A DNA stretch of 64,000 nucleotides from a bacterium (lineage in GTDB: Bacteria; Vulcanimicrobiota; Vulcanimicrobiia; Eremiobacterales; Eremiobacteraceae), in the NCBI GenBank assembly GCA_902812405.1, contig CADDZI010000001.1:1-64000 (forward strand). The letters run 5' to 3'. The position numbers and the translations under genes are program-made. Below, piece after piece: positions 4,698 through 8,780 of this stretch; the stretch's first letter is position 1; each line of letters starts with the position of its first letter. The notes below the pieces were generated by a model that worked only from the letters and a program-made list of their open reading frames with translations, was not told where the DNA came from and made no database searches.

Positions 4698-4711
4698 GCA
4701 ACCGAGGATTT

Positions 4712-4868
4712 CCTCGTTAGGCGAGGCGTCTGCACAAACAAAAGCCGCTGCCCGGAAAGGTCGAGAGACCCCAATGGGCCACCAGGCACCGCCGAAATAA
4801 GGCGGTATCTAAGACGGCTAGGCTTCCGAGCCTTACGTTGTGCAGTGTCAAAGCTCGACGCATGAGGA
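4712..4868 (+). promoter_or_regulatory. M-box (ykoK leader) Mg2+ riboswitch aptamer
   Basis: The RNA carries the M-box signature blocks in order: GTTAGGCGAGGC (4716-4727), GCCGCTGCCCGG (4744-4755), GGTCGAGAGACCCCAATGGG (4759-4778), ATCTAAGACGGCTAGGC (4807-4823) and GTGCAGTGTCAAAGCTC (about 4840-4856). These match the Bacillus mgtE leader pattern (GUUAGGUGAGGC, CCAAUGGGUCA, ACAGUGCUAAAGCUC). The short P1 closing helix pairs CCTC at 4712 with GAGG near 4864. M-box RNAs bind Mg2+ and switch off Mg2+ importers. The genes downstream are a metal transporter and an outer-membrane barrel, consistent with Mg2+ import. Confidence 0.95.
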
Positions 4869-4899
4869 TCCCGGCAGATCCAAAGCCGGTGAACCCGTC

Positions 4900-4938
4900 A
4901 CCGTCGCCAGCGAGGAAAAGGCGGCGGTTCTTTATTTT
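4900..4938 (+). terminator. Riboswitch-linked intrinsic terminator
   Basis: ACCGTCGCC (4900-4908) pairs with GGCGGCGGT (4920-4928) to give a 9-bp stem with one G-U pair and an 11-nt loop, followed by the T-rich tract TCTTTATTTT (4929-4938). It lies 30-40 nt after the aptamer, where an M-box expression platform is expected. High Mg2+ should favour this hairpin and stop transcription before the structural genes. Confidence 0.85.
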
Positions 4939-5074
4939 CGGCCGCACGAAGGGGGTGATGGTGTCCGTGGACGGCAGTCATAGGTCGATTCGCTGTATCG
5001 TGCTGTGGCTTCCCGCACCCGTGGCCGGCTGCCGCGCTGCGGCGCAAGCCCGAAACCGTTAGGAGGTGTGTCCC

Positions 5075-5230
5075 ATGAAGACGTTTGTTCTCCGGGCAAT
5101 CTTGGCGCCCCGGATTGTGTCGGCCCTCTCGGCCGTTCGGTCCTTCCTTAACCCCTGCCCGCCCCCACCGAATTCGTTCGCGGCAGATAACCCCCGCATC
5201 GGGTTCCACGAGAAGCTGTTTCTCTCATAA
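5075..5230 (+). CDS. 51-codon leader ORF, possible relic N-terminus of the Nramp-like transporter
   Basis: ATG at 5075 has the best ribosome site of the operon (AGGAGG at 5061-5066) and reads 51 codons to TAA at 5228. The first 20 residues (MKTFVLRAILAPRIVSALSA) resemble the pre-TM1 start of Nramp-related Mg2+ transporters, which run as a basic stretch, then I/L-G-P-G-I/L-V, then the metal-binding TM1. The rest is proline-rich and resembles nothing. The next gene begins at TM5 of that family. My reading is that this ORF keeps the original translation start of a transporter whose TM1-4 have been deleted or lost. It could instead be a genuine short leader peptide. Confidence 0.4.
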   Translation: MKTFVLRAILAPRIVSALSAVRSFLNPCPPPPNSFAADNPRIGFHEKLFLS

Positions 5231-5250: not shown

Positions 5251-6099
5251 ATGTCTGCACTTCACACGGCGACGCGGGAACGCGTCGCCCTCTTCGTTGC
5301 CGCCTTCAACCTGATCTTCGTGCCGATCGTGCTCATGGCCCACCCGGATTGGGTGGCTGTCGGCCGGGCGTTCATCCACCCTCCGCTGCCCGCGGACTGG
5401 CTCTCGGCGTCCTTTCTCATCCTCATATCGGCCAACATCGGGACGACAATCGCACCCTGGCAACTCTTCTTCCAGCAGTCGTGCGTGGTTGACAAGGGCC
5501 TGCTACCCAGGGATATTCCGGCCGGCCGGCGCGACTTGGTGCTGGGTGTGACCGGGATGGCCGTCGTGGCCCTGTCGATCATCATCCTGACCGGTCAATA
5601 CCTGCACGGCATTCCGGGTGCGGACAACTTCCGGATCGACCAGATCGTCGCAGCCATTGCCTCGCACGTCGGCCATCGTGCCATGCTCCTCTTCGTCCTG
5701 GGTCTGGCCGAGGCCGGGCTCATCGCGGCCATCGTGATCACGGCCAGCACGGCCTGGGCCATCGGAGAAGCGTTTGACTGGCCGCGCTCTATTAACGACC
5801 ACCCCGTGCAGGCGCTGGGGTTTTACCTCCCCAGCTTGGCGGCCACGGCGCTGGCGGGCAGCGTTGTCCTCCTGCCGAACGTCCCGCTGGGCTTTCTCAA
5901 TCTTTCGGTTCAGGTAATCGCGACGATCTTCATGCCGCCTGCGATGCTCTTTTTACTCATGCTCCTCAATGATCGCGAGCTGATGGGTCCCTACGTCAAC
6001 GGACCGTGGCGCAACGCGGTTTCCATTGTCATCCTTGCAAGCCTGATTGTGTGCAACACCTTGTACGGTCTTGCCACGCTCTTCCCCGACAAACGCTAG
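5251..6099 (+). CDS. Nramp/NRMT-like divalent metal transporter lacking TM1-4
   Basis: 282-aa polytopic membrane protein matching the C-terminal part of Nramp-family carriers. TM5 (about 12-30) is followed by the TM6 motif ANIGTTIAPWQLFFQQS (61-77), then QQS-x-VVDKGL and five more helices ending in ASLIVCNTLYGLATLF. Nramp-related Mg2+ transporters of about 400 aa carry a first repeat (TM1-5) whose TM1 supplies half of the metal site; that part is absent. In-frame sequence extends upstream only to a stop at 5188. Control by an M-box points to Mg2+ as substrate. It is followed closely by a small membrane protein whose ribosome site overlaps its stop codon. It may be a broken gene, a half-transporter, or an assembly deletion. 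Confidence 0.85.
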   Translation: MSALHTATRERVALFVAAFNLIFVPIVLMAHPDWVAVGRAFIHPPLPADWLSASFLILISANIGTTIAPWQLFFQQSCVVDKGLLPRDIPAGRRDLVLGVTGMAVVALSIIILTGQYLHGIPGADNFRIDQIVAAIASHVGHRAMLLFVLGLAEAGLIAAIVITASTAWAIGEAFDWPRSINDHPVQALGFYLPSLAATALAGSVVLLPNVPLGFLNLSVQVIATIFMPPAMLFLLMLLNDRELMGPYVNGPWRNAVSIVILASLIVCNTLYGLATLFPDKR

Positions 6100-8457: not shown

Positions 8458-8780
8458 GGGATGATGGTGGAATCGGCAGACACGACAGACTTCGACCGAG
8501 GAGCCGAAGGCCGGGAAACCGCCTTCGGGATGCGCTCAAAGTCGGCGGACTCTCGCCACGCGGGCGTGACAACGCCGAGCCAAGCCCGTACGCGGCGCAC
8601 CGTGTGTCTGTGGCGTGCGGGAAGGTGTAGAGACTGGACGGGCGCGGCCTACCTCGCACCTGCGGGTGTGACACGGCCAAGGCACAGTCCGGACCACAAA
8701 CGGCAACGGTGGTGAAAACCATAGTGGTGCGAAAATCTGTTGCCCGCAAGGGCGTCCGGGTTCGAATCCCGGTCATCCCA
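8458..8780 (+). tRNA. tRNA-Leu(UAA) split by a group I intron
   Basis: Exon 1 (8458-8492) begins GGGATGATGGTGGAATCGGC; exon 2 runs 8732-8780. Joined, they form a complete type II tRNA. The acceptor pairs GGGATGA with TCATCCC, the anticodon arm is ACAGA-CTTAAAA-TCTGT with anticodon TAA, the long variable arm is TGCCCGCAAGGGCG, and the T arm is CCGGGTTCGAATCCCGG. Discriminator A is at 8780, and CCA is not encoded. Without removal of the 239-nt insert the anticodon is interrupted after U34. Confidence 0.95.
8493..8731 (+). ncRNA. Self-splicing group I intron (tRNA-Leu type, IC3-like)
   Basis: 239-nt intron inserted after U34 of the anticodon, the site used in cyanobacterial and plastid tRNA-Leu(UAA). 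The 5' exon ends in U and can form a U-G pair with an internal guide (GAG in the first 16 nt); the intron ends in G at 8731. Conserved core blocks are present in order: GGGATGCGCTCAAAGTC (8528-8544), GACAACGCCGAGCCAAGCC (8568-8586), GGAAGGTGTAGAGACT (8620-8635) and AGTCCGGACCACAAA (8686-8700). They align block for block with the Anabaena tRNA-Leu intron as I remember it. No homing endonuclease is encoded. Confidence 0.93.

Follow-up and report, generated by a model that had tools for sequence, protein, structure and literature searches.

The tRNA-Leu(UAA) gene at positions 8458–8780 (forward strand) of the window, that is, of the whole 64-kb stretch of DNA analysed here, raises the question of whether a working group I intron resides in a bacterium outside Cyanobacteria and, if so, where it came from. 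Reviews record group I introns in tRNA genes of Cyanobacteria and plastids and of a small number of alpha- and beta-proteobacteria (PMC4033280, PMC3984707), the one in tRNA-Leu being the ancient intron of Cyanobacteria (PMC4476775). The host is a member of one class of Vulcanimicrobiota (Candidatus Eremiobacterota), which agrees with the non-cyanobacterial host proposed by a first-pass annotation of the sequence; the literature search found no paper describing group I introns from Eremiobacterota. Taken as a whole, the data are best explained, with a probability of about 0.85, by a functional ORF-less IC3-type intron that entered the lineage of this class a single time, was inherited, and was lost many times.

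Structure of the interrupted gene

Without the intron option, ARAGORN does not call the gene at 8458–8780. With introns allowed, it reports tRNA-Leu(taa) at exactly these positions, interrupted behind nucleotide 35 by an intron of 239 nt; the 84 nt that remain after splicing are, on their own, again called tRNA-Leu(taa), with full stems and a long variable arm. The anticodon loop reads C32 U33 U34 / intron / A35 A36 A37 A38, which places the intron at the U34/A35 junction. ARAGORN thus bears out the coordinates, intron length, insertion site, and isotype given by the first-pass annotation, as well as its claim that the mature tRNA is intact once the intron is removed. The gene consists of the following parts:

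8458–8492, forward strand: 5′ exon of tRNA-Leu(UAA), from acceptor GGGATGA through C32 U33 U34 (ARAGORN with introns, spliced tRNA check)
8493–8731, forward strand: group I intron, IC3-type, 239 nt, without endonuclease gene (covariance model from other phyla, covariation)
8732–8780, forward strand: 3′ exon of tRNA-Leu(UAA), A35 to A73, CCA not encoded (ARAGORN)

The GC content of the intron (0.67) matches that of the window (0.66), and related introns range from 0.56 to 0.67; these values do not back the earlier suggestion that the GC-rich stems show adaptation to the host.

Assignment to group I

The standard group I model, which had been proposed as a check, does not detect this intron: Rfam RF00028 (Intron_gpI) gives no match to it at the gathering threshold or at permissive ones, even at E 10, nor in a whole-genome search. 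This score is a test of profile sensitivity and not a defining group I feature, and the miss is a shortcoming of the general model that does not count against the intron. An independent covariance model, built from 25 proteobacterial and acidobacterial introns only to avoid circularity, matches positions 8492–8731 end to end (123.3 bits, E 1.1e-32) and has no other match in the 64-kb window or the 2.3 Mb genome. Together with covariation over 59 introns, this dedicated model upholds the group I identity.

The alignment comprises 59 introns from Vulcanimicrobiota, Proteobacteria, and Acidobacteria, with the structure written for the window intron. In total, 91.8% of its cells are paired, versus 30–42% when partners are slid, and 33 pairs change on both sides; the observed values are never reached by any shuffle. 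Every cell is paired in P4, P6, and P7, and 93% are in P3; the value for P2 is 75.8%, owing to small length differences. RNAalifold, unaided, recovers P1, P2, P3, P4, P5, P6a, P8, P9, and the tRNA anticodon stem. Minimum-energy folding gives a z-score of −1.9, which alone is uninformative for a pseudoknotted RNA. Covariation across the 59 introns backs the group I architecture, the pseudoknot helix P3 included, as detailed below.

8490–8503, forward strand: P1, exon CUU and first intron base with guide GGAG (8500–8503); 5′ splice-site U·G in 59/59
8504–8528, forward strand: P2 hairpin with GAAA tetraloop (8515–8518); 10/10 pairs change on both sides
8531–8537, forward strand: P3 5′ strand, partner 8640–8646; one pair is G-C in 30 and C-G in 29, broken in 0
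8542–8547, forward strand: P4 5′ strand, partner 8573–8578; 59/59 paired, one pair G-C/U-G/C-G
8579–8626, forward strand: P6 (8579–8581 with 8624–8626) and P6a (8585–8593 with 8613–8621); 9/9 P6a pairs change on both sides
8632–8636, forward strand: P7 5′ strand, guanosine-site helix, partner 8685–8689; 59/59 paired, last pair G-C in 36 and A-U in 23
8640–8646, forward strand: P3 3′ strand, pseudoknot with P7; covariation in 59 introns
8693–8728, forward strand: P9.0/P9 region (8693–8697 with 8724–8728) and P9 hairpin 8710–8721 with GAAA loop; 97–100% of cells paired
8731, forward strand: omega-G, last intron base; invariant, 59/59

The traits of IC3 tRNA introns are present (239 nt, anticodon loop, no P5abc, end-to-end match to the tRNA-intron covariance model), and the element is predicted to be an ORF-less, self-splicing group I intron of IC3 type. 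The cyanobacterial/plastid trnL(UAA) IC3 intron shares with it the tRNA, the U34/A35 site, the core order, the lack of an ORF, and a length of about 200–300 nt, whereas the window intron differs in host phylum and in being GC-rich. Compared with what we take to be the Anabaena sequence, the R core reads GTGTAGAGACTG instead of GTGCAGAGACTC, and a P7 pair is G-C instead of C-G. As for the Azoarcus BH72 tRNA-Ile IC3 intron, what we take to be its sequence has a near-identical core (GGGAAACC, CAACGCCGAGCCAAGC, GAAGGTGTAGAGACT) and the same GAAA loops in P2 and P9, but the tRNA and the host are different. A crystal structure exists for the Azoarcus intron (PMC3984707).

Predicted splicing

From this structure we infer splicing in vivo by the following chemistry. 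The transcript would fold into the P3–P9 / P4–P6 core, an external guanosine held in P7 would attack at the P1 U·G pair, and the freed 5′ exon would then attack after the terminal G. U34 would be joined to A35 and the intron released, and the product would be a mature tRNA reading UUA. Alphaproteobacterial tRNA-Arg(CCU) introns, which are likewise ORF-less group I introns in the anticodon loop and missed by tRNA annotation, differ in the tRNA and the insertion site; the one from Bartonella splices in vivo and in vitro (PMC7717549).

Judging from sequence, the intron is real and probably working. It lies on a fairly long branch of the tree, as might a degenerating intron that no longer splices and leaves its tRNA gene dead, but its core pairs are all intact, no second tRNA-Leu(UAA) copy was found in the 2.32 Mb genome, and UUA codons are in use (7/248 Leu codons in six genes). 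Since the gene is single-copy and UUA codons are used, it should be needed, and decay is considered very improbable.

Distribution in the phylum

The sample of the phylum includes 149 genomes, most of them MAGs: 117 of the window's class and 32 of other classes. Among the relatives collected, the locus was matched in 49 of 61 related genomes, roughly 30 of them with the intron. Across the class, about 49 of 117 genomes have the intron (the core pattern is found in 46, and three more contain mismatches), 41 have an uninterrupted tRNA-Leu(UAA), and 27 have neither form. The two forms never occur together (0/117; P 1e-13 if independent). As for the other classes, no tRNA-Leu intron was found in their 32 genomes (13 families), 28 of which have an intact intronless tRNA-Leu(UAA), mostly of GCCGGAG/GCGGGAG type.

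In the larger family, both states are present within six genera (g10, g12, g15, g18, g25, and g27), and intronless copies retain the allele GGGATGA or close variants, so that the exons stayed in place while the intron was gained or precisely lost. Intronless genomes of the window's own family carry a different tRNA-Leu(UAA) allele, GGGCGCG, so the entire tRNA gene may there have been replaced, or exchanged by transfer. The tRNA follows a ppx/gppA gene (verified with Pfam) in several of the genomes sampled, both intron-bearing and intronless, and this neighbour is absent at the locus of the window genome.

Three further cases were noted in the sample. In four genomes of one genus in family f3 (G022, G039, G075, and G076), no tRNA-Leu(UAA) was found, with or without intron, although three of them are 90–98% complete. 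One tRNA-Leu intron (L167, G057:C26) has ~100 nt of additional sequence in its P6 region, and its core is changed at several points. Finally, one contig (L151, G007:C182) contains the tRNA-Leu(UAA) 5′ half twice, at about 2974 and 9643; this spacing of 6.7 kb resembles the outcome of an element integrating at the anticodon loop.

An assembly artefact or contamination, i.e., a tRNA contig foreign to the genome, is hardly credible as a source of this locus. The window genome (2.32 Mb, 96.7% complete) is a MAG of 110 contigs, and the neighbours of the locus differ from those in other family members. Its contamination, however, is 0.04%, the contig is 129.5 kb long, both the exon allele and the intron fall together with those of six other family members, and similar introns lie on contigs >1 Mb in relatives.

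Origin of the intron

All 36 class introns form one clade with support 100/100, inside which the seven introns of the window's family form a clade of their own (94/90). Quick and careful trees disagree on the sister group of the class introns, which is expected from 146–153 columns. The nearest sets are alphaproteobacterial, betaproteobacterial, acidobacterial, and phage introns, and the order among them varies. The cyanobacterial comparator is what we take to be the Anabaena tRNA-Leu intron (249 nt) and serves as a lead only. According to the AU test, none of the following groupings is rejected: class introns with Beta/phage (p 0.60), with Acidobacteria (p 0.50), or with the single putative Anabaena sequence (p 0.32), and separate clades for the two families (p 0.36).

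Because the other classes are intronless (28/32 with an intact gene, 0/32 with the intron), the gain most likely falls within the class lineage; gain and loss are read here from absence in the outgroup. One early acquisition in the class lineage, followed by vertical inheritance and repeated loss, is the simplest and most likely reading. The first-pass annotation had left the choice between vertical descent and transfer; the absence from the outgroup narrows it to a most likely gain inside the class lineage with subsequent inheritance and loss. The lack of cyanobacterial flanking genes, which had also been taken as a clue, says nothing about the origin of the intron.

The p value for a clade with the putative Anabaena intron is compatible with ancient vertical inheritance, in which a shared ancestor of Vulcanimicrobiota and Cyanobacteria already had the intron and, within the former, the window's class alone kept it. 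The insertion site and architecture shared with the cyanobacterial/plastid intron also agree with this scenario (PMC4476775, PMC4033280). It would, however, require many more losses; the 32 genomes from 13 families of other classes lack the intron, 28 of them with an intact intronless gene, and relatives are found in Proteobacteria, Acidobacteria, and phages. Such inheritance is decidedly unlikely, and the distribution fits a single gain with repeated loss, not descent from an ancestor common with Cyanobacteria.

The idea that a cyanobacterium was the direct donor, through homing or recombination of the tRNA locus, gains some credit from another tRNA gene of the phylum. Its tRNA-fMet(CAU) genes have group I introns of ~650 nt with a PD-(D/E)XK ORF (L378, G010:C33; L379, G013:C129; L380, G103:C55) that matches 2OST at E 1e-61, and ORF-less versions occur in two genomes (L369, L370). 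We take 2OST to be I-Ssp6803I, the endonuclease of the cyanobacterial tRNA-fMet intron. That intron is listed with 655 nt along with its PD-(D/E)XK enzyme (PMC1995217). Given this similarity, tRNA introns seem to have moved between Vulcanimicrobiota and Cyanobacteria, at least in the tRNA-fMet case, which makes exchange of another tRNA intron plausible. In addition, tRNA-Leu introns have reportedly moved among cyanobacteria (Rudi and co-workers, as cited in PMC3984707 and PMC5733544). Against such a transfer, the nearest sets in the trees are alpha- and betaproteobacterial, acidobacterial, and phage introns. With cyanobacteria represented by one putative sequence, direct transfer from a cyanobacterium is considered unlikely, and a single early gain in the class lineage remains preferred.

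Relatives in other bacteria, phages, and plasmids

A scan of named genomes yielded at least 118 further stretches. Of 129 related loci with clear boundaries among the matches listed, 127 yield tRNA-Leu(UAA) once spliced; ARAGORN isotypes Trp, Phe, and Ser at several of these loci are artefacts. Introns at the same site are common, again among the matches listed, in Alphaproteobacteria, Burkholderiales, and Acidobacteria. The description of the locus as lying outside the usual cyanobacterial context is therefore true of the host, but Cyanobacteria are not the sole usual context. A tRNA-Leu(UAA) intron was reportedly described in J Bacteriol in 2002 from a deep-subsurface gamma-proteobacterium; it is also outside Cyanobacteria, belongs to another phylum than the window intron, and is likened to it by description only.

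Viral contigs (IMG/VR) contain at least 120 IC3-type cores, of which ARAGORN assigns, among the matches listed, 41 to tRNA-Leu(UAA) and 18 to tRNA-Arg(UCU). Predicted phage contigs (L233–L352) carry IC3-type introns in tRNA genes for Leu UAA, Arg UCU, Arg CCU, Ile/Met CAU, Lys, and others, and the 595-kb phage LR756511 (L355) is among the carriers. No cyanobacterial-type cores were found in viral contigs. Two of the intron-bearing contigs have rIIA/rIIB genes (L240, L244), and some may be proviruses beside host tRNA genes. According to a 2014 review, phage introns then known were all in protein genes (PMC3984707).

Within the phylum, group I introns also occur in tRNA-Tyr(GUA) and tRNA-Asn(GUU) genes of two genomes from other classes (L375 and L376 in G069; L377 in G070). 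By exact-pattern search, IC3 introns had seemed confined to the class; this was overturned when the covariance model found the tRNA-Tyr and tRNA-Asn introns, and the restriction to the class is therefore claimed for tRNA-Leu(UAA) only. A broader reading, to which we give slightly less than even odds, is that IC3 introns of tRNA-Leu(UAA) and other tRNAs are one mobile, phylum-crossing family, which phages carry within tRNA genes of their own and which is occasionally equipped with I-Ssp6803I-type endonucleases, with the cyanobacterial intron as one branch and Vulcanimicrobiota as one recipient.

The intron family itself is already known and spread over several bacterial phyla and phages; what is new is the Vulcanimicrobiota member, which extends the oldest-known family of bacterial introns to one more phylum. 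The likely gain and repeated precise loss fall within one class, where both forms of a single-copy gene exist side by side. Since tRNA and Rfam searches miss such intron-bearing genes, UUA-reading tRNAs will look absent in many MAGs. Phage-borne relatives, in turn, make the movement of tRNA introns between phyla testable.

Two observations concern other replicons. The acidobacterial contig CADEFM010000006.1 (L097) has two intron-bearing tRNA-Leu(UAA) genes, at 1750–1984 and 4881–5119, ~3.1 kb apart. Plasmids of Enterobacteriaceae and Acinetobacter (1270 records) contain a complete intron-bearing tRNA-Leu(UAA) near aac(3)-IId and IS26 (L353, NC_004464.2 61962–62109; L354). The plasmid piece looks like alphaproteobacterial chromosome and may point to the source of the aac(3)-IId resistance region.

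Other features of the window genome

A second, unrelated group I intron candidate lies in the 23S rRNA gene (L367, G000:C18:8725–9058, minus strand) within the conserved GGCACCTC-ATGTCGG stretch, with an RF00028 score of 26 bits, below the cut-off. The window also contains an M-box magnesium riboswitch at 4706–4873 (132.8 bits), ~380 nt upstream of an Nramp ORF (5251–6099). This ORF matches profile positions 120–356 only, and the transporter thus looks 5′-truncated or frameshifted.
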